Below are positions 1 through 10,249 of a stretch of DNA of 10,249 bases, piece after piece. Under the pieces are notes generated by a model that worked only from the letters and a program-made list of their open reading frames with translations, had not been told where the DNA came from and ran no database searches. The stretch comes from Lysobacteraceae bacterium (lineage in GTDB: Bacteria > Pseudomonadota > Gammaproteobacteria > Xanthomonadales > Wenzhouxiangellaceae), in contig JAIVHD010000383.1 in NCBI GenBank assembly GCA_020201235.1, positions 1 through 10,249 of the forward strand, given 5' to 3'. Position numbers and translations under genes: made by a program. The first letter of the stretch is position 1; every line of letters starts with the position of its first letter.

Positions 1-913
1 GCTCGGCGATGAAGTCCCGGGTGGCCACGGCGGTGAGCCAGGAATGCGGGATTTTTTTACGCCGCGTGCGCACGATGGCCTGCTCGGCCGGCAGCGTGAT
101 CTTGCCCGAAGCGCCGGCGCCAATGCCAACGTAGTCGCCGAAGCGCCAGTAGTTCAGGTTATGAACGCTGGCGCGACCCGGTTTGGCCCAAGCCGAGATT
201 TCATAGTTTTCAAGACCGGCCGCCGACAAACGCTCAGCGCAGGCGTCCTGCATGGCCCAGACGACATCCTCGTCGGGCAAGGTCGGCGGGCGCGCGGCAA
301 ACACCGTGTTGGGCTCGATCGTGAGTTGATAGTGCGACAGGTGTGGCGGACCGAATGCCAGCGCCTGATCGATGTCGGCGCAGGCCCGCTCGAGGCTTTG
401 CCCCGGCAAGCCCCACATTAGGTCGAGATTAAAGTGATCAAAACCGGCATCGACGATCGCCCGGATCGCCCCTCTGGCCTGTTCACCATCGTGGATACGA
501 CCCAGCGTTTGCAGTTGCCGATCGTCGAAGGTCTGAATACCAAGACTGATCCGGTTGACGCCGGCTGAGCGATAGGCCTCGAAGCGGTCGTGCTCGACCG
601 TGCCGGGGTTGGCCTCCAGCGTAATTTCCGCGCCGGGTGCCAGTCGCACTCGCGCCGAGACACCATCCAGGATGGCACCGATGGCTGATGCCGAAAACAG
701 GCTGGGCGTGCCGCCGCCAAAAAAAATCGAACCAACCGTCCGGCCCCAGATGCGCGGCAGGTCCAGTTCCAGATCGTGCAGCAAGGCCTCGACATAGGCC
801 TGCTCGGGAACTTCGCCGGAAAGCGCGTGCGAGTTGAAATCGCAGTACGGGCACTTGGCCACACACCAAGGCAGATGGACATACAGGGAAAGTGGGGGTA
901 AAGACAGGCGCAT
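1..913 (-). CDS. hemW: HemW, radical SAM haem chaperone (3' end cut by window edge)
   Basis: HemW, long annotated as an oxygen-independent coproporphyrinogen III oxidase-like protein, is a cytoplasmic radical SAM protein that binds haem and passes it to target enzymes. The frame is open from ATG 913 to the left edge, giving about 304 residues against roughly 380 in the family, so the C-terminal quarter lies outside the window. The cluster motif PWCVAKCPYCDFNSH has Cys17, Cys21 and Cys24, with Tyr and Phe spaced as in HemW. The SAM-contact loop FGGGTPS follows at 65-71. EANPGT, NRISLGIQ, HLSHYQLTIEPNT and HNLNYWRFGDYVGIG are all family hallmarks and are in order. I checked the frame base by base and saw no lesion. 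The start fits homologues beginning just before LPPLSLY; no good Shine-Dalgarno is visible. It lies 152 nt after rdgB, in the usual rph-rdgB-hemW order. Confidence 0.95.
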   Translation of the reverse strand, partial: MRLSLPPLSLYVHLPWCVAKCPYCDFNSHALSGEVPEQAYVEALLHDLELDLPRIWGRTVGSIFFGGGTPSLFSASAIGAILDGVSARVRLAPGAEITLEANPGTVEHDRFEAYRSAGVNRISLGIQTFDDRQLQTLGRIHDGEQARGAIRAIVDAGFDHFNLDLMWGLPGQSLERACADIDQALAFGPPHLSHYQLTIEPNTVFAARPPTLPDEDVVWAMQDACAERLSAAGLENYEISAWAKPGRASVHNLNYWRFGDYVGIGAGASGKITLPAEQAIVRTRRKKIPHSWLTAVATRDFIAE

Positions 914-1676: not shown

Positions 1677-2308
1677 TCAGGCTTTCGCAAGCGCTTCGGT
1701 CTGCGCCTGCATCAGCGTCTCAACGCCGATCCAGGCCAGATCAAGCATCCGATCAAGTTCGCTGCGATGAAAGGCATGGCCTTCAGCCGTACCCTGGACT
1801 TCGATCAGACCACCGCCGTCGTTCATCACCACGTTGAGGTCGGTATCGGCATTGGAATCTTCGGCGTAATCGAGATCGAGCACCGACTCGGTTCCCAGCA
1901 TCCCAACCGAAACGGCGGCGACCTGGCCATGGATCGGGTTTTTCTTGATCTTGCCGCGCTTTTTCAGCGTGCCAATGGCATCGACCAGCGCCACATAGGC
2001 ACCGGTGATGGCAGGCTGCGCCCGATCAGGCGCTGAATCTCCAGCGTTCGGCCGGCCTGCCGGCCCTTGGTCGCCTCGCGCATGTTGCGCGAGTGCGTCG
2101 CGCGCGGCAACATCCCGTATTCGGCCGTCACCCAGCCCGAATTCTTGCCGCGCAGCCAGGGCGGCACGCGGTCCTCGACGCTGGCGTTGCATAAAACCCG
2201 CGTTTCGCCAAAACTGATCAGCACCGAGCCTTCGGCATGGCGCGTGAAGTGACGCAGAATTTCGAGCGGCCTGAGTTCGTCGGGCTGTCTTCCGGAGGGT
2301 CGGTTCAA
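1677..2308 (-). pseudogene. rph: RNase PH, broken by an out-of-frame internal deletion
   Basis: RNase PH is a phosphorolytic 3'-to-5' exoribonuclease that trims tRNA 3' ends. The first 99 codons, from a TTG start at 2308 with AGGA at 2316-2319, match the family: [27 protein letters not shown] and [14 protein letters not shown]. From 2009 to the TGA at 1677 another frame carries the rest: [42 protein letters not shown] with catalytic aspartates, and IEVQGTAEG. Between CTG (2012-2014) and ATC (2007-2009) only two bases remain. E. coli Rph has 31 residues there, including the GGTRTA phosphate-binding loop. About 91 nt are therefore missing, which shifts the frame. Restoring them would give about 240 residues against 238 in E. 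coli. As written, translation runs out of frame and stops near 1964. This is either a true pseudogene or a sequence artefact. Confidence 0.88.
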
Positions 2309-2495
2309 GTTGATTTCCTACAGGATTTTAAGAGTGGGACGGAAGGTTACCATGGACGACCCACACGGCCACCGGTAATCCCGCCGTATTCACCAGTCTT
2401 GCATTGCGAGGGGTCGTCCGGCCGGACGGTGCGGCAGCAGCAAGGGATGAATAAGGCGGGCGAAGATACCGACAAGCACGCTTAGCCCAGCTTAT
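2309..2495 (-). other. ridA-rph spacer
   Basis: No gene is supported in this 187-nt gap. It contains most of the stem-loop at the ridA stop, a 14-bp perfect palindrome (CGTCCGGCCGGACG, 2415-2428), a possible -10-like TAAAAT at 2325-2330 without a good -35, and AGGA at 2316-2319 serving the TTG start of rph. An rph-rdgB-hemW promoter is likely here but cannot be pinned down. Confidence 0.35.
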
Positions 2496-2498
2496 TCA
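2448..2498 (-). other. Stem-loop spanning the ridA stop codon
   Basis: TGAATAAG (2448-2455) pairs perfectly with CTTATTCA (2491-2498). After a symmetric 2x2 internal loop, GGGC (2458-2461) pairs with GCCC (2485-2488). On the minus strand the outer stem begins at the ridA TGA. It could protect the ridA 3' end or separate it from rph. There is no following T-run, so I do not call it a terminator. Confidence 0.35.
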
Positions 2499-2888
2499 AT
2501 ACGATTGGGCAACCACCGCAACGCCATCCATTTCAACATCGACGTTCGTGGGAAGCGCCGAAACCTGGACCGCGGCGCGCGCCGGATAGGGCTCGTCGAA
2601 GACTTCGGCCATAATGGCATTGACCTCGGCGAAGCGCGCCAGATCGGTCAAGTAGATGTTGAGCTTGACGACGTCGGCGAGGCTTCCTCCAGCGGCCTCG
2701 CAAACGGCCCGAAGGTTGCCGAAAACCCGCTGCACGCGCGCCTCGAAATCGCCGTCGACCAGCTCGCCGGTATCCGGGTCCAGCGGTATCTGGCCGGAAA
2801 GATAAACCGTCTGGCCGGCCCGGACCGCTTGAGAATACGGCCCGATCGCCGACGGTGCGCTGGCGGTCTGGATCGGATTGTTGTGCAT
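2496..2888 (-). CDS. ridA: RidA family enamine/imine deaminase
   Basis: RidA hydrolyses 2-aminoacrylate and related reactive enamines/imines released by PLP enzymes such as threonine dehydratase, protecting other PLP enzymes in the cytosol. The product is 130 residues (E. coli 128) and reads through the family pattern: [58 protein letters not shown] with the substrate-carboxylate Arg, and [10 protein letters not shown] near the C-terminus with the acidic position. The frame is open upstream to 3005, but ATG 2888 is the right start: AGGAG lies 8 nt upstream (2897-2901) and the N-terminus aligns there. It sits downstream of spoT, a common gammaproteobacterial arrangement, with the oxygenase remnant between. 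A 172-nt spacer (2889-3060) upstream could hold its own promoter, but I see no convincing -35/-10 pair. Confidence 0.95.
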
Positions 2889-3060
2889 GAAGATGGCTCC
2901 TGATTCAAACTGATCAATAGCGGATAGGCCGGCGCGGAAGACACGCCTGGCGCCGCCGGAAAGTACGACCCGCTGTACCGAGGATAGTGTAACCGCGCCG
3001 GCCAATTAATGACTCGTTGCGACCGGGCCGACTGCAACTGCAAACCCGGAAAAATCCATA

Positions 3061-3492
3061 TCAGCGCGGCGGGTCAAGCACTTCGCCAACATTGCCGTTG
3101 AGCCTGAACCAGGCCGATACGCTGGCGCGGTCGACCCGCGGCCGCAGGCATTCAAGCTGATCGAGCAACACCCGGTGCGCATTGCGCGAACGGCTCAGCC
3201 AGAAGATCCAATCCCGCCGAATCTGGCGGGCCAGCTGAAACGTGCGCTCGCGACCGATGCCGGCACGCTTGAGACGATCCTGGTTGAGCAGCCGGGCGAA
3301 ATCGGCTCGAAGGAGAGCGACCAGCGCTTTCGGAACCGCGTTTTCCTGGACATACCAGCCGTGCTGCGTCAGCGCCCCGGCAGCCGGCCCAATCAATGCT
3401 TCGATATCAAGCCGCATCGCGTTATGAACAGCCTGCTTCCCGGCCTGCTTCCCGGCCGGGAAGTCAAGCGAGCGATTATCAGGGCGACTCAT
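3061..3492 (-). CDS. 2-oxoglutarate/Fe(II) oxygenase (SM-20-like) remnant lacking its catalytic core
   Basis: The 143-residue product resembles the ends of an SM-20/prolyl-hydroxylase-like 2-oxoglutarate dioxygenase of about 200-220 residues. Residues 40-115 carry the N-terminal family pattern: LTQHGWYV, ALVALLRADFARLL, AGIGRERTFQLARQIRRDW, FWL and LLDQLECLR. Residues 124-131 (SVSAWFRL) look like the family's C-terminal strand, usually SLTGWFR. The double-stranded beta-helix core between them, with the HxD...H iron ligands and the 2OG-binding Arg, is absent. The join is near 3121-3126 and keeps frame. By family length about 80-95 codons are missing, so the product should be inactive. The ATG at 3492 overlaps the spoT stop by 4 nt (ATGA); an internal ATG at 3417 is an alternative that would exclude a 12-bp tandem repeat. 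The family assignment is from motif memory and is less certain than for the neighbours. Confidence 0.6.
   Translation of the reverse strand: MSRPDNRSLDFPAGKQAGKQAVHNAMRLDIEALIGPAAGALTQHGWYVQENAVPKALVALLRADFARLLNQDRLKRAGIGRERTFQLARQIRRDWIFWLSRSRNAHRVLLDQLECLRPRVDRASVSAWFRLNGNVGEVLDPPR
3431..3463. repeat. 12-bp tandem duplication joined to a 16-bp perfect palindrome
   Basis: GCCTGCTTCCCG occurs twice in tandem at 3431-3454. The second copy runs into the palindrome CTTCCCGGCCGGGAAG at 3448-3463. It lies about 40 nt beyond the spoT stop in the transcription direction, inside the N-terminus of the oxygenase remnant (encoding AGKQAGKQ) if the upstream ATG is used, or in the spacer if ATG 3417 is used. 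Confidence 0.6.
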
Positions 3493-5609
3493 CCCATCTC
3501 ACGGCTAACGCGAAAAACCCTGGGGTTGCGGCGCAGCCGGGTCATGACGCGCGCGAGTTGGTTGCGGCTGCGCAGCCCGATCAGGAAATAGAGTTCGGCG
3601 GTATCGCTGGTGCTTTCGCGCTGCTCTACGCGCTCAATATTGGCTTGCGCCTGACCAAGCGATGCCGAAATCGAGGCCAGCACGCCGGGTCCGTTGACCG
3701 TAACCACTCTCAACACGGTGCTGAAGGTGCCGCGTGGCAAAGGCTCCCAGCCGACGTCAATGCAACGTTCCGGGCGCTCACGCCTCAAGGCCGGCACGTT
3801 CGGGCACTTTTCGCGATGGACGATGATGCCGCGGCCCGGCTCCAGGTAAGCCATGATGCGATCGCCGGGGATCGGGTGGCAGCATTTGCCGTAGCGGATC
3901 GCCGTGCCCTCGTTGCTACCGACCGTGAAGACATCCTCAGCGGGCGGCTCGGTGCCCCGGCGTCTGGTGATCGACAACAATTTCGGGACTACGTTGATCG
4001 CCAGGACATCACCCCGTGCGATCCGGATGAGCAGCTCTTCGATGCGCTCCAGGCCGGCTTTTCGAAGATAGCGATCGAGCCTGCGGGTCGAAACACCGTC
4101 CAGTGAGCTACCACGTCGCGCCAGCGCCTGGTCGAGCAAACGGTGCCCGATGGCGACCGTATCGGCCTGCTCCAGGTGCTTGAGATGCGATCGAATTGCT
4201 GCTCTTGCCTTGGCGGTCACGACGTGATCGAGCCAATCGGCGCGCGGCTCAACAGAGTCATCTGTGTCGATCTCGACGGTCTGTCCATTTTTAAGCCGTG
4301 TGCTCAGCGGTGCCTGTTTGAAATCGATCCGGGCGCGACGCGCACGATTGCCGACGTCGGTATGAATGGCATAGGCAAAGTCGAGTGCCGACGAATTTTC
4401 CTTGAGATCGATGATCTTGCCCCTGGGGGTAAACACGAAGACCTCGTCGGGAAACAATTCCGCCTTGGCGGTATCGATGAAGTCGAGCGGGCTGTTGGTG
4501 CGCGACTGTGACTCGACCAGTTTCATCAGCCACTCACGCGCTCTGACCGCGGTCGTGGTGCTGGGCGTTGCTGCCTTATACAGCCAGTGCGCGGCGGCAC
4601 CCTTTTCGGCCACCGTGTCCATTTCGACGGTCCGGATCTGAATTTCGATCGGGACGTTGTAGGGTGAGGTCAGCACCGTGTGCAAGGACTGGTAACCGTT
4701 CGGCTTGGGCAGCGCGATGTAGTCCTTGAAGCTGCCGGGACGCGGCTTGAACAAATGATGTACCACGCCCAGTGCCCGGTAACAATCCGACTCGGAATGC
4801 GTGATGATTCTGAATGCGTACAGATCATAAACCTCGTTGAACGACAAGGATTTGTCGCGCATCTTGGAATAAATGCTGTAAATGCTTTTTTCTCGCCCTT
4901 CGACCCGACAGTTGATTTCGGCCTCGTTGAAGCGCTTCTTCAGCGAATCGCTGACCGAAGCGATGATGCCCTTACGATGCCTGGCGATCGTGCGCGCTCG
5001 GCGCGCGATGATGCGGTAACGGTTGGGATGAAGATTGCCGAAACCGAGTTGCTCCAGCTCCAGCTTCAGCGCGTTCATACCAAGCCGGTCAGCAATCGGG
5101 GCATAGATCTGCAGGGTTTCATTCGAAATGCGACGGCGCGCCCCGGGCGACATCGCCGAAATGGTTCGCATATTGTGCAGACGGTCGGCCAGCTTGATAA
5201 AAATAACGCGAAGATCGCGGCTCATCGCCAGCAGCAGCTTGCGAAAGCTCTCCGCGTCGGCTTCCTGCCGGGTGCGGAATTTCATCTTGTCGAGCTTGGT
5301 CACGCCGTCAACCAGCTTGGCGACCGCTTCGCCGAATTCGAGCGAAAGGTCCAGCAGCGACAACGGGGTATCCTCGACCGTATCGTGCAAAATGGCGGCG
5401 GTAATGGTCTGATGATCCATCCGCATTTCAGCCAGGATGGTCGCGACCGCAACCGGATGAAGTATGTACTCCTCGCCGGACCGGCGGGTCTGGCCGCGAT
5501 GGGCACGCTCGCCCACTTCAAACGCGCGCAGCACGATTGCGACCTGATCCGGCTCCAGATAGCTTTCGAGCAGGCGTTTTAAATCGCGAACCGGACTCGG
5601 GTAGTTCAC
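3489..5609 (-). CDS. spoT: SpoT, bifunctional (p)ppGpp synthetase/hydrolase
   Basis: SpoT sets (p)ppGpp levels: an N-terminal HD domain hydrolyses it and an adjacent domain can make it from GTP/GDP and ATP. At 706 residues it matches E. coli SpoT (702). The hydrolase is intact: SGEEYILHP (His51), ILHDTVEDT (His75-Asp76, Glu79-Asp80), KLADRLHNMRT (Asp142). In the synthetase region, YDLYAFRII (Asp262), NGYQSLHT and IEIQIRT (Glu322) are kept, but the RxKD motif reads Ser293-Phe-Lys-Asp. TGS is at about 388-448 (FPDEVFVFTPRG), the Cys/His region at 576-602 (GKCCHPIPGD, VHREKC), and ACT at about 630-704. The GTG at 5609 is the first possible start after an in-frame stop at 5664-5666 and aligns with the E. 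coli N-terminus; no strong ribosome-binding site is visible. It follows rpoZ and overlaps the next gene by 4 nt. Confidence 0.97.
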   Translation of the reverse strand: MNYPSPVRDLKRLLESYLEPDQVAIVLRAFEVGERAHRGQTRRSGEEYILHPVAVATILAEMRMDHQTITAAILHDTVEDTPLSLLDLSLEFGEAVAKLVDGVTKLDKMKFRTRQEADAESFRKLLLAMSRDLRVIFIKLADRLHNMRTISAMSPGARRRISNETLQIYAPIADRLGMNALKLELEQLGFGNLHPNRYRIIARRARTIARHRKGIIASVSDSLKKRFNEAEINCRVEGREKSIYSIYSKMRDKSLSFNEVYDLYAFRIITHSESDCYRALGVVHHLFKPRPGSFKDYIALPKPNGYQSLHTVLTSPYNVPIEIQIRTVEMDTVAEKGAAAHWLYKAATPSTTTAVRAREWLMKLVESQSRTNSPLDFIDTAKAELFPDEVFVFTPRGKIIDLKENSSALDFAYAIHTDVGNRARRARIDFKQAPLSTRLKNGQTVEIDTDDSVEPRADWLDHVVTAKARAAIRSHLKHLEQADTVAIGHRLLDQALARRGSSLDGVSTRRLDRYLRKAGLERIEELLIRIARGDVLAINVVPKLLSITRRRGTEPPAEDVFTVGSNEGTAIRYGKCCHPIPGDRIMAYLEPGRGIIVHREKCPNVPALRRERPERCIDVGWEPLPRGTFSTVLRVVTVNGPGVLASISASLGQAQANIERVEQRESTSDTAELYFLIGLRSRNQLARVMTRLRRNPRVFRVSREMG

Positions 5610-5820
5610 TGCCGGTCTTGCGTTCGCCCCGGACCCTTCAGGAGCCGGCGGTCCAGAAAGCTTTCAAAAACCTGAAAACCCAGCCATTGACCATTGCATC
5701 CATCGGACATCGACTTGCCTGGACGGCGGCAATGTGCGACATCGCGAAACATCGCTTCGCGCTCGACCGAATGCATCGCGGCAGGTCGGATCATGGATGG
5801 TTCGGCTCAATCGTGCCCGA
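5610..5820 (-). other. rpoZ-spoT interval without a convincing gene
   Basis: If the natural omega tail ends at 5821, the 211 bases before spoT are non-coding. The three minus-strand frames carry no recognised domain. One 62-codon frame (5794-5606) ends in a GTGA overlap with the spoT start but resembles nothing known to me. The interval contains a second copy of a 13-bp sequence also present in rpoZ (5799-5811 and 5921-5933) and a 10-bp palindrome, GAAAGCTTTC. Confidence 0.35.
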
Positions 5821-5966
5821 TCAGTCTTCGTCCGGCGGCGGCGGCGGAAGCTCGGCAGCGGCTCGGAGCCGTTGGCGATCTGGCGGGCGCGCTGTGCCGC
5901 CATGACAATAAGGTTGAACCGGTTCGGCTCAATATCCATGCAATCTTCTACGGTGACACGGGCCAT
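5664..5966 (-). pseudogene. rpoZ: RNA polymerase omega subunit, N-terminal half followed by an aberrant frame
   Basis: Omega helps assemble RNA polymerase by latching the beta' subunit and forms part of a ppGpp-binding site. ATG 5966 has an excellent AGGAG at 5974-5978. Residues 1-38 are canonical: [28 protein letters not shown]. After that the conserved block normally reading DKPTVVALREIA is absent in all three frames. The starting frame continues as arginine-rich, low-quality sequence to a TGA at 5664-5666 (100 codons). A second frame reads [10 protein letters not shown] then TGA at 5821-5823, which looks like a natural acidic omega tail. The likeliest reading is an internal deletion near 5848-5861, with removed length equal to 1 mod 3, beside a repeated CCGAGC and a run of five CCG. 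If instead the 100-residue frame is real, it is a very unusual omega. Confidence 0.75.
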
Positions 5967-6206
5967 TGAATGACTCCTGGAATAAACGTGTTTGAAAACA
6001 AAGCCGAACATCGGCCAGAAAAACAGCCGGTCAACGGCCGGATCACGGGCGCACTGATGGCTTCATAAAACCCAATTGCGGGCCGTCGCCGACCATTTTT
6101 TACAGCCACCTCAACGGGCCAGAGCGTGCAATAGACACCTGCAGCGCGCCGGCTCAGGAATCGCCGGAACGCACAGCCGGTCAGCGATCGAACTGGATAT
6201 TATACC
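5967..6206 (-). other. gmk-rpoZ spacer, probable rpoZ leader
   Basis: These 240 bases hold no credible gene. They contain the TATAAT at 6199-6204 near the gmk end and AGGAG (5974-5978) near the rpoZ start. A short GCCG/CGGC stem followed by five T lies about 70 nt before rpoZ on the minus strand; it is too weak to call an attenuator. Nothing else stands out. Confidence 0.4.
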
Positions 6207-6229
6207 TCAGGAACTCAGCAAGTCGGCAA
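6199..6229 (-). promoter_or_regulatory. Probable promoter for rpoZ-spoT overlapping the 3' end of gmk
   Basis: On the minus strand a perfect TATAAT lies at 6199-6204, just past the gmk stop, with TTGCCG (4 of 6 to consensus) at 6224-6229. The 19-nt spacer is on the long side. A consensus -10 is unusual in this GC-rich sequence and is well placed to feed rpoZ and spoT independently of gmk, leaving a leader of over 220 nt. This is prediction only. Confidence 0.45.
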
Positions 6230-6839
6230 GCCGCGATCGCTGAACGATTTTCTGCCGCTCGCGCCGCAGCGGCCAGGCGCGCAGGATCGACATCAATTGC
6301 TGGCGCGCGTGATTGAACTGGTCATTGACCAGGATCCAGTCAAATTCGAGGCAGGCCGAAATTTCATGGCGGGCCTCGCCGAGGCGACGCGCAATCACGT
6401 CAGGCTGGTCGGTACCGCGCGCAACCAGGCGGGCCCGAAGCGCTTCCAGAGACGGTGGCAAAATGAAAATCAGGCAGGCCTGCGGGTGGCTTTGGCGTAC
6501 CTGGGCCGCACCCTGGACATCGATTTCGAGCAGCACATCGCAGCCCTTGCCCCAAAGCTGCCGGACCCGGGCACGATCGGTGCCGTAGCCGTGACCAAAG
6601 ACCTCGGCGTGTTCCAGGTAGCGGCCCTGTGCGACGCGCTCGGTAAAGGTCGCCGGCTCGATGAAGTGATAATGCACGCCGTCGACTTCGCCACGGCGCG
6701 CGGCGCGCGTGGTGTCGGAGACCGAAAACGCCAACGATGGAAATTCCTCCAGCGCGCTGTTGATCAGGCTGGTCTTGCCGGCACCGCTGGGCGCTGCGAT
6801 GACGTACAGCTCGCCGTCGCGATCCGGGTTATTCGACAT
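6207..6839 (-). CDS. gmk: Guanylate kinase
   Basis: Gmk phosphorylates GMP (and dGMP) to the diphosphate with ATP and is essential for guanine nucleotide supply; it is also a known ppGpp-sensitive enzyme in several bacteria. The product is 210 residues, close to 207 in E. coli. The P-loop is APSGAGKTS (16-24). The GMP-binding region has SDTTRAARRGEVDGVHYHF, then LEHAEVFGHGYGTDR, LEIDVQGAAQVR, and the C-terminal FILPPS and DWILVNDQFNHA. Within TTRxxRPGE the proline is Arg here, a mild departure. An upstream in-frame ATG at 6866 exists, but ATG 6839 matches the family N-terminus and has AGG at 6846-6848. The first 11 nt overlap the 3' end of yicC, implying co-transcription and coupling. Its last codons contain the -35 of a probable promoter for rpoZ. 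Confidence 0.97.
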   Translation of the reverse strand: MSNNPDRDGELYVIAAPSGAGKTSLINSALEEFPSLAFSVSDTTRAARRGEVDGVHYHFIEPATFTERVAQGRYLEHAEVFGHGYGTDRARVRQLWGKGCDVLLEIDVQGAAQVRQSHPQACLIFILPPSLEALRARLVARGTDQPDVIARRLGEARHEISACLEFDWILVNDQFNHARQQLMSILRAWPLRRERQKIVQRSRLADLLSS

Positions 6840-7698
6840 TCTGTACCTGTTCCCGCAGCTGCTCAATCAGCACCTTCAATTCCACTGCCACGCCGGTGGT
6901 TTCGATCGCCACTGACTTCGATCCCAGCGTGTTGGCTTCGCGATTGAGTTCCTGCATCAGAAAATCCAGACGCCGGCCAACCGGCTCATCAAGTGCAACA
7001 ACCCGGCGAATTTCGGCCACGTGCGCCTCGATGCGGTCCAGTTCCTCGTCGACGTCGAGCTTGGTCAGCTGCAAAACCACTTCCTGCTCGATCCGCCCGG
7101 GCTCGAGATCCTGGCCGAGATTTTCGAGCCTTTCTTCAAAACGCGTCTGCAACGCACGCCGCACCTCGGGCAAATGATGACGCACTTTCGCGACCTGTTC
7201 GAGAATGCCGGCTAAGCGGGGTTTGAGCATATCGATGATTGCGCGGCCTTCCTGGGCACGCGCCGCCGACAGATCTTCGATGCAAGCATCGAGCAGTTTT
7301 AACGCACGCGCGCGCTCGGATTCAAAATCCAGGCGCTGCTCGATGATCAGGCCCGGCCAGGCCAGCATGCGCACCAGGTCGGGTTCGGCCGCCGAGCCCG
7401 CCATATTGGCCAGCACTTCGTGCTGGCGCAAAAGCGATTGGGCCAGCGCGGCATTGAGCTCAAGCGTTGCCGCCTGGGCCGCCGGGTCGGGCTGATAGCG
7501 CAGGTTGACCTCGATCTTGCCACGACTGAATTTTTTCTTGAAGCGCTCGCGCAACTGCGGTTCGAGAACTCGAAACTCCTCGGGCAGGCGCGGCGATACA
7601 TCGAGATAGCGCTGATTGACGCTCTTGAGCTCCCAGAGGATCTGCCCGAAAGCGGAGGACTCGCCGCGACTGGCATAGGCAGTCATGCTATGGATCAT
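6829..7698 (-). CDS. yicC: YicC family endoribonuclease/RNA-turnover protein
   Basis: YicC-like proteins are conserved endoribonucleases; E. coli YicC has been linked to PNPase-dependent degradation of the small RNA RyhB. The 289 residues match E. coli YicC (287). The N-terminus MIHSMTAYASRG with LKSVNQRYLD, PRLPEEFR and FSRGKIEVNLRY is the YicC_N pattern. The C-terminal DUF1732 end is unmistakable: RIEQEVVLQLTKLDVDEELDR, AHVAEIRRV, PVGRRLDFLMQELNREANTL and GSKS. The frame is open upstream to 7842, but ATG 7698 gives the conserved MIHSMTAY start. It is the first gene of the minus-strand run and is divergent from recG. In many gammaproteobacteria rph lies next to yicC; here rph is about 4.5 kb downstream on the same strand. 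No lesion is seen. Confidence 0.94.
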   Translation of the reverse strand: MIHSMTAYASRGESSAFGQILWELKSVNQRYLDVSPRLPEEFRVLEPQLRERFKKKFSRGKIEVNLRYQPDPAAQAATLELNAALAQSLLRQHEVLANMAGSAAEPDLVRMLAWPGLIIEQRLDFESERARALKLLDACIEDLSAARAQEGRAIIDMLKPRLAGILEQVAKVRHHLPEVRRALQTRFEERLENLGQDLEPGRIEQEVVLQLTKLDVDEELDRIEAHVAEIRRVVALDEPVGRRLDFLMQELNREANTLGSKSVAIETTGVAVELKVLIEQLREQVQNVE

Positions 7699-7829
7699 GA
7701 TGCAGTAGTCTCGAATCGAGGGCCCGTCATGGTAACTGATTGCCGCCACTGGCATCCAGCTTCCGGATCGGCCCGGCTTGCACGACCTCACCATTGCGCG
7801 GCATTCCGGCGGCGGACTGCCTGCCGGCC

Positions 7830-7857
7830 GTGAAACGGGCACAATGCGGGGTACACT
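7830..7857 (+). promoter_or_regulatory. Candidate recG promoter in the divergent yicC-recG spacer
   Basis: GTGAAA (7830-7835) and TACACT (7852-7857), each 4 of 6 to sigma-70 consensus with a 16-nt spacer, lie about 95 nt before the recG ATG. The whole spacer (7699-7950) is non-coding and must serve both directions. Just upstream of yicC it has a small inverted repeat, CTCGA-A-TCGAG, at 7710-7720. Weak evidence. Confidence 0.25.
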
Positions 7858-7950
7858 GAGACCTCAAGGCGAACAAATCCATTAAAGGGCGAAGCAACAG
7901 GGAGGATCGGCGAAGCGACGTGCATCATCCGACCCCCAACGTTTAAATCC

Positions 7951-9852
7951 ATGCCGGCCGATTCCCGTAAAAGCGCGCCCGCCAGGCGCATCGAAGATCT
8001 CCCTGGCATCGGCCCGGGGCTGGCTGCAAAATTCAGGACGCTGGGGGTCAATGATGAACACAATCTGCTATTTCATCTGCCGCTACGCTACGAGGACCGC
8101 ACCCGCCTGACCCCTATCAGTCGGCTTCGACCATCACTCACGGCGCTGGTCGAGGGGCGCGTTTGCCATCAGGAAACCCGCCAGGGTGGTCGCCGCAGCC
8201 TGCTCGTGGTCATCGAAGACGACACCGGTCAAGTGGTGCTGCGATTTTTTAATTTTTATCCCAGCCAGCAGCGCCAGTTCGCGATCGGCAACCGACTGCG
8301 CTGCTTCGGCGAGGTCCGGTTTGGGCCGGAGGGCTTCGAGATGGCCCATCCGCAATGCCAGAATCTGCGCGCCGGCCACGAGCCGATCCACCGACCCGAC
8401 CCCGGTGCCGACCTGGAGGGTCTGATCAACGGGCTGCATCCGGCGGTCCGACGGCTGGCGCTGGAAGAACTGATCGCCCACCATCTGGCACTGGCTCGGC
8501 TTAATCGAGCGCGCGCCCGGCAACACGCGCAAGCGTTATGCGACGAGGCCGGACTGGTTGGTCGCCTGCTGCGGGCATTTCCGTTCGAACCGACCGCTGC
8601 GCAAAAGCGCGTGATGACCGAAATCGGCGCCGACTTGTCCGGCACCCGGCCGATGCGGCGCCTGCTGCAAGGCGATGTCGGCTCCGGCAAAACGCTGGTG
8701 GCGGCGGCTGCCGCGGCTCAGGCAATGGGTGCCGGGGCACAGGTCGCCATTGTCGCGCCGACCGAAATTTTGGCCGAACAGCACCGGGTCAACTTCAGCG
8801 CGTGGTTTAAACCGCTGGGGATCGAACCGGTCTGGCTGGCCGGCAAGGTCACCGGCAAGAAGCGCGAGCAAACGCTGGGCGAACTGGCCGACGGTGCTGC
8901 ACTGGCGATCGGTACACATGCGCTGTTTCAGGAAGCCGTGCAGTTTCGCAATCTGTGCCTGGTCATCGTTGATGAGCAGCACCGCTTCGGCGTCGACCAA
9001 CGCCTGGCGTTGGCGGCCAAGGGCAGCCGGGACCGCCAGGTTCCGCACCAGTTGGTCATGACCGCAACGCCGATTCCGCGCACCCTGGCAATGACCGCCT
9101 ACGCGGGTCTCGAGATATCCGTGATCGACGAACTGCCGCCCGGACGCAAGCCGGTGACCACGGCGTTGATCGACGGCGAGCGCCGCGGCCAGGTGATCGA
9201 GCGCATACGAATCGCGCTGGGCGAGGGACGCCAGGCCTACTGGGTCTGCCCACTGATCGAGGAGTCCGATGCGCTCGAAGCCGAGGCGGCCGAAACCACT
9301 GCGGCCGAACTGGAACGCCAACTGCCCGGATTGCGGGTCGGGCTGATTCACGGGCGAATGAAATCGACAGACAAGACCGCCGTCATGGATGCCTTCAAGC
9401 AGGGCCACATCCGGCTGCTGGTCGCGACCACGGTCATCGAGGTCGGGGTCGATGTCAGCAACGCCAGCCTGATGATGATCGAAAACGCCGAGCGTCTCGG
9501 ACTTTCGCAATTGCACCAATTGCGTGGCCGGGTTGGCCGCGGCAGCGAAAAAGCCGCCTGCGTTCTGCTCTACAAGTCACCGGTCGGACAGCTTGCGCGA
9601 GAACGGCTGAAGGTCATGCGCGAGACGAGCGACGGTTTCAGGATTGCCGAGCGCGATCTTGAACTCCGGGGCCCGGGCGAGCTTCTGGGCCGGCGCCAAA
9701 CCGGCATGCTGCGCTTTCGCATCGCCGATCTCGGCCGCGATGCCGGGCTGATCGACCGGGTCGCGCCGCTGGCCACGGCGCTCGATCGCGACCAGGCCGA
9801 TACCCTGATCCGCCGCTGGATCGGCGACGCCGAGCAGTTTGCCGACGCCTGA
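7951..9852 (+). CDS. recG: RecG branch-migration helicase with a likely internal deletion
   Basis: RecG is a superfamily 2 double-stranded DNA translocase that regresses stalled forks and migrates Holliday junctions. The product is 633 residues; E. coli RecG has 693. The N-terminal wedge begins normally (DLPGIGPGLAAKF, LLFHLPLRYEDRT, RFFNF, GFEMAHP). The helicase part is complete: GDVGSGKT (241-248), APTEILAEQH, VIVDEQHRFG with DEQH at 341-344, TATPIPRTLAMT (371-382), HGRMK, VATTVIEVGVDV, LHQLRGRVGRG (521-531), then RDLELRGPGELLG. At residues 144-148, GHEPI runs straight into HRPDP. The roughly 60 residues normally between, including the conserved PVYPTTEG motif and the linker into the helicase domain, are missing in frame near 8383-8391. 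ATG 7951 aligns with the family start; no Shine-Dalgarno is evident. Activity is doubtful if the sequence is correct. Confidence 0.94.
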   Translation: MPADSRKSAPARRIEDLPGIGPGLAAKFRTLGVNDEHNLLFHLPLRYEDRTRLTPISRLRPSLTALVEGRVCHQETRQGGRRSLLVVIEDDTGQVVLRFFNFYPSQQRQFAIGNRLRCFGEVRFGPEGFEMAHPQCQNLRAGHEPIHRPDPGADLEGLINGLHPAVRRLALEELIAHHLALARLNRARARQHAQALCDEAGLVGRLLRAFPFEPTAAQKRVMTEIGADLSGTRPMRRLLQGDVGSGKTLVAAAAAAQAMGAGAQVAIVAPTEILAEQHRVNFSAWFKPLGIEPVWLAGKVTGKKREQTLGELADGAALAIGTHALFQEAVQFRNLCLVIVDEQHRFGVDQRLALAAKGSRDRQVPHQLVMTATPIPRTLAMTAYAGLEISVIDELPPGRKPVTTALIDGERRGQVIERIRIALGEGRQAYWVCPLIEESDALEAEAAETTAAELERQLPGLRVGLIHGRMKSTDKTAVMDAFKQGHIRLLVATTVIEVGVDVSNASLMMIENAERLGLSQLHQLRGRVGRGSEKAACVLLYKSPVGQLARERLKVMRETSDGFRIAERDLELRGPGELLGRRQTGMLRFRIADLGRDAGLIDRVAPLATALDRDQADTLIRRWIGDAEQFADA

Positions 9853-9924: not shown

Positions 9925-10249
9925 TCAGGCCTTGCCGTAGCTTTTCTTGACGTAGCTGCCCGGTGCCGGCTCGATCACCGACAAATCGCCGTCGCCGGGC
10001 TGGCGCGCCGGGATGCGGCGACCGGCGTATTGCTTGATCCACTGGTTCCAGTGCGGCCACCACGAGCCTTCGTGATAATCGGCGCCTGCAATCCACTGAT
10101 CCGGATCGGCCGGCAAATCGTCGTTGGTCCAGTAGCCGTACTTGTTGGCCGACGGCGGGTTGATGACGCCGGCAATGTGGCCGGAACCGGCCAACATAAA
10201 GGTAATCGGCCCCGAGAAAATCTGCGTGGCCTTATAGACCGACGGGTAC
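9925..10249 (-). CDS. phaC: Class I poly(3-hydroxyalkanoate) synthase, C-terminal part (5' end outside window)
   Basis: PHA synthase polymerises (R)-3-hydroxyacyl-CoA into storage polyester on granule surfaces. Only the last 107 codons are present, open to the right edge. YPSVYKATQIFSGP and MLAGSGHIAGVINPP contain the catalytic histidine of the alpha/beta-hydrolase fold (GSGHIAG, the counterpart of His508 in Cupriavidus necator PhaC). They are followed by the class I tail pattern: YGYWTND, LPADPDQW, GSWWPHWNQW and EPAPGSYVKK. The catalytic Cys and Asp would lie upstream, out of view. The stop at 9925-9927 leaves 72 nt to the convergent recG stop. Its presence implies the organism stores PHA. 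Confidence 0.93.
   Translation of the reverse strand, partial: YPSVYKATQIFSGPITFMLAGSGHIAGVINPPSANKYGYWTNDDLPADPDQWIAGADYHEGSWWPHWNQWIKQYAGRRIPARQPGDGDLSVIEPAPGSYVKKSYGKA

Follow-up and report, generated by a model that had tools for sequence, protein, structure and literature searches.

The window analysed here, a stretch of 10,249 nt that represents the entire contig C189 of the draft assembly G000, raises the question whether four conserved genes, each lacking an internal block between intact flanks, were shortened in the living organism or during the reconstruction of its genome. The assembly comprises 439 contigs with 2,888,667 bases and its completeness is rated at 83.12%. An earlier note on this DNA described rph, a 2OG-Fe(II) oxygenase gene, rpoZ and recG as normal N-terminal parts fused to normal C-terminal parts, which was borne out by exact protein matching for three of the genes and by comparison with relatives for RpoZ. 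The losses are almost certainly assembly errors, because otherwise identical intact copies of three of these genes exist in public records.

Four joins inside conserved genes

The gene rph encoding ribonuclease PH (1677..2308, minus strand) has kept both ends around an internal loss of 91 nt that shifts the frame. Its join (2011/2012) was placed by exact matching to the intact protein P0121 (240 aa), whose residues 2-99 equal window positions 2305-2012 and residues 130-240 positions 2012-1680, the two stretches being read in different frames, and by DNA alignment with the locus L105, which carries 91 nt extra at this place. L105 belongs to G005, a relative from the same genus, and its gene order is identical to that of the window. 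Residue 1 of Rph stays outside the exact match, and the start codon in the window is TTG.

The oxygenase gene (3061..3492, minus strand) has lost 285 nt, i.e. 95 codons, from its interior with the frame kept. The intact protein P0242 (238 aa) matches exactly with residues 1-117 (window 3492-3142) and 214-238 (3138-3064), and the codon at the join falls outside these matches. The join is thereby placed at 3139-3141, so that the loss itself is confirmed whereas its previously proposed position near 3123 has to be corrected. The family PF13640 was detected in P0242, and the Pfam search of the shortened window product returned no family.

In recG (7951..9852, plus strand) codons 146-203 are lost, which corresponds to 174 nt and keeps the frame. 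Exact matching to P0002 (691 aa) placed the join at 8385/8386, with residues 1-145 covering window positions 7951-8385 and residues 204-691 positions 8386-9849. The window product of 633 aa is identical to P0002 save for the block of 58 residues, and this shortened RecG is already an entry (P0001) in the protein collection searched. The gene rpoZ for the omega subunit of RNA polymerase (5821..5966, minus strand) has lost approximately 124 nt with a frame shift, as judged from its alignment with L105, L106 and L107, which puts the join at 5855..5857 (about 5856); this loss was sized against relatives only, with the 89-aa rpoZ ORF of L105 as reference.

Two of the joins shift the frame (rph and rpoZ) and two keep it (oxygenase and recG), exactly as the note had stated, and its estimates of about 31 codons for rph, 80-95 for the oxygenase and about 60 for recG hold when set beside the 91, 285 and 174 nt found here. 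None of the four joins contains Ns. Alignment with L105 likewise showed all four losses between preserved flanks, those in rph and recG being sharp. Point sequencing errors were rejected as a cause, since each loss removes one clean block (91-285 nt).

The neighbouring genes hemW, rdgB, ridA, spoT, gmk and yicC had been regarded as complete. DNA alignment with L105 revealed no clean loss in the last five, whereas hemW (1-913, minus strand) is truncated by the contig edge at base 1. One more candidate join, located between gmk and yicC at 6815-6829, was rejected, because the difference of 148 nt represents additional intergenic DNA in L105 that is absent from L106 of the relative G003, which aligns across this place as one piece. 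The longest piece between joins (3141..5855, about 2,715 nt) holds spoT and is a suggestive candidate for an original contig. Outside the genes discussed here, window positions 2376-2435 show 79-82% identity to one stretch each on C163, C351 and C79 elsewhere in the genome. At the other end, the contig end cuts a gene of which the C-terminal part is left (9925-10248, minus strand); the fragment presumably resembles the C-terminus of PHA synthase, and a Pfam scan of 9928-10197 gave no family.

Intact alleles in relatives and public records

The survey of relatives comprised 17 loci, one each from 17 of 60 relatives, and was done with tblastn. The RecG block is retained in all 17 loci, with 57-58 of 58 residues. 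Where a match was obtained, the Rph block is retained in all 15 loci (the remaining two of 17 had none) and the oxygenase block in both, the other 15 of 17 giving none. For RpoZ, 0 of 40 block residues were found in the window vs 40 of 40 in each of 15 loci with a match, a count that includes the query's own locus, and 2 of the 17 loci were without match. In the window itself tblastn seemingly placed 40 of 58 block positions for RecG, 6 of 30 for Rph and 28 of 96 for the oxygenase, which exact matching revealed as residues of the flanks that had been forced into alignment with the block. The note had pointed out that relatives with the same shortened genes would make the deletions ancestral; among the 17 loci examined, the short forms are absent wherever the block could be matched.

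Public records hold an intact Rph (240 aa), an intact oxygenase (238 aa) and an intact RecG (691 aa), all labelled NCBI MAG Wenzhouxiangellaceae bacterium. Apart from the first residue of Rph and the codon at the oxygenase join, the flanks of all three joins match these proteins exactly. P0002 was found with the window RecG as query among the best 120 listed of 8,000 scored candidates, while P0121 and P0242 were found with the C-terminal part of rph and the oxygenase remnant, respectively. The contig given for each of the three has a length of 14,609 bases, and we infer from this equal size and the common label that they are encoded on one contig. Judged from the sequence identity, the records should stem from the same species, and hence the missing sequence is probably present in the same organism for RecG, Rph and the oxygenase. 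By extension, rpoZ would be intact in the organism, too.

A relocation of the blocks to other places in the genome was rejected, albeit by weak searches; fetched contigs below 3 kb read as N. The L105 blocks of rph and recG, queried with short flanks, failed to match anywhere in G000, the flanks in the window included, which makes this empty answer uninformative. The rpoZ query matched in G000 the window's own flank only, and the intact oxygenase P0242 matched the two window pieces only.

Losses elsewhere in the assembly

For comparison with the rest of the assembly, 64 of the 439 contigs including the window were sampled, of which five (below 3 kb) consist wholly of N, leaving 59 readable contigs with 426,777 bases. 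They were compared with G003 (41 stretches) and G005 (21), in both cases covering part only of the relative. In total, 16 N-free losses of 85-298 nt were found in 7 of the 59 readable contigs, a rate that is inflated because the window, which is included, was picked for its losses. Ten of them are distinct losses at the DNA level (91-298 nt, 5 contigs, after one row had been dropped), two places being detected in the comparisons with G005 and G003 alike. Six others come from protein alignment and exact matching, the window and L142 contributing two each and L135 and L201 one each. Thirteen of the 16 were sized against relatives rather than against an allele of the same species, and the flanks are weakest in L201 and L142 (44-54% protein identity). 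The count omits the gmk-yicC row, N-marked sites, L154, L185 and the loose gaps in L164 (5866-5902), L133 (3468-3667) and L201 (2648-2709), the last of which was used for piece length only.

In 45,456 bases aligned between G000 and G005, nine sharp losses appeared in our assembly, or eight without the dropped row, vs none in G005; in 39,318 bases aligned with G003, four losses in our assembly stood against one in G003. The control alignment of G005 with G003 (49,494 bases) gave none in G005 and one in G003, and this control row is the same place as the dropped row (window 6815), i.e. the extra intergenic DNA in L105. An orthologue test in its first pass, which used longest-ORF gene calls and was later replaced, yielded 7/20 and 4/30 events for our assembly and 2/32 and 2/26 for the controls. 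The replacement test gave 7/32 and 6/52 vs 1/48 and 2/45; all three control events are gaps within one alignment, as are some of our own (RecG twice, mfd, L154 and L185). Insertions in the replacement test numbered two and three for our assembly and two and one for the controls.

The loss lengths are divisible by three in 5 of the 16 cases, which is roughly the chance level. One frame-shifting loss of 215 nt splits metK on C13 (L135, 3862-4732); a search of G000 for the MetK family returned the two halves only, both on C13, and no further copy. The gene metK is generally essential. When eight affected proteins of the relatives were scanned, three could be named (an RND periplasmic adaptor, MetK and Mfd), and the remaining five gave no family at E 1e-20. 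Collectively, the losses are spread across the assembly regardless of gene or frame. A reverse case was observed in L154 (C109) at about 3464-3472, where some 342-364 nt are present in our assembly and absent in G003, where the place lies within or next to an ORF of 859 aa.

Possible origin of the losses

The four shortened genes represent, with a probability of about 96%, an assembly artefact and not biology. The note had rated an artefact no less likely than a biological cause. Among the causes it listed, collapsed or removed scaffold gaps are strongly supported by the intact alleles, the recurrent losses and a control with a single, intergenic difference, whereas microhomology-mediated deletion and an undefined deletion process are not supported. 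Most probably, short-read contigs were abutted without Ns. The window would then consist of about five short-read contigs scaffolded end to end, in which the assembler or scaffolder dropped 91, 285, about 124 and 174 nt at four places and wrote the flanks adjacent to each other without Ns. Gaps estimated at zero or below may have been written as direct joins, with the sequence between them lost, while the organism's own genes would be intact. We infer that the faulty step was contig scaffolding with a gap estimate of zero or less rather than some other assembler error.

Two kinds of evidence bear on this step. The 59 readable contigs contain 11 N runs that are 24-225 long, some or all of which may be masks, because masking also reads as N. 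At two comparable runs the relative has 22 and 480 nt beyond what the Ns stand for, which fits underestimated scaffold gaps. That N runs were removed wholesale is unsupported, because they persist in other contigs, though with the same reservation about masking. Furthermore, the list of contigs shows a local ordering by length, interrupted by longer contigs, and seems to mix several series; its longest descending runs (12/22, 10/19 and 12/25) were equalled in 1, 8 and 3 of 2,000 shuffles, respectively. The longest piece of the window sits between the nearby C188 (2,731) and C194 (2,686). Similarly, the longest piece of C13 (4,461) fits its bracket of 4,376-4,520 and that of C19 (4,264) the bracket 4,232-4,309, while C198 can fit loosely, with a join somewhere in 2,648-2,709 and a bracket of 2,633-2,655. 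Over the seven contigs with joins, three fit, one can fit, two do not (C11 and C371) and C20 speaks neither way, so that the length order is suggestive and leans towards abutted contigs.

Another assembly or library error, such as a wrongly closed gap or chimeras with deletions that arose during amplification, is an unlikely competitor. In its favour, the intact alleles and the recurrence in other contigs fit any technical loss, and C11 and C371 do not conform to the piece-length argument. In C189, C13 and C19 the piece lengths lean to scaffolding instead, as do the N runs, two of them with more missing than their Ns stand for, although such runs may be masks. True microhomology-mediated deletions in a decaying genome appear highly improbable. 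They would be in line with the sharp joins and with an assembly of 2.89 Mb rated 83% complete; however, for three of the genes there are alleles whose flanks are identical and whose middle is intact, the sole metK copy found is interrupted by a frame-shifting loss, eight losses per 45,456 bases aligned with G005 would be hard to survive, and the sequence shared at the joins, as estimated at the codon level, amounts to at most about 2 nt in rph and 0-1 in recG.

Even less credit can be given to strain-level polymorphism, or an undefined process of internal deletion, in a living subpopulation. The intact records come from outside this genome, and populations could indeed differ, but the three proteins are without any amino acid difference outside the joins, start residue aside, the losses ignore the frame, and the blocks were not found elsewhere in G000, although by weak searches. 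It is hardly credible that a population truly carries many internal deletions of 85-300 nt, metK included, beside an otherwise identical intact one. Abutted contigs with silently lost sequence thus remain the preferred reading. For users of this draft, it carries a warning on data quality, namely that apparently broken or shortened genes should not be interpreted biologically. Silent N-free losses occur at 8 per 45,456 bases aligned with G005 and 4 per 39,318 aligned with G003, window included, and they may also affect the completeness figure of 83%.

Lineage-specific internal gene deletions are a feature of reduced genomes, in which the short form is found lineage-wide or decay follows. The window resembles such cases in that conserved genes are shortened while their flanks are intact, and differs from them in that the relatives examined have full-length genes and the alleles with identical flanks are intact. 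This exact error type was not found in the literature surveyed at listing level. For metagenome-assembled genomes, Chen et al. (2020, Genome Res., PMC7111523) describe how gaps where scaffolds are joined, as well as errors of local assembly, leave incomplete or incorrect protein genes in public databases. The losses in the window would be comparable, with incomplete genes at what are probably scaffold joins. Unlike one error type described in that work, in which Ns are put in though the flanks overlap, the window loses sequence without Ns, which makes the error harder to spot.
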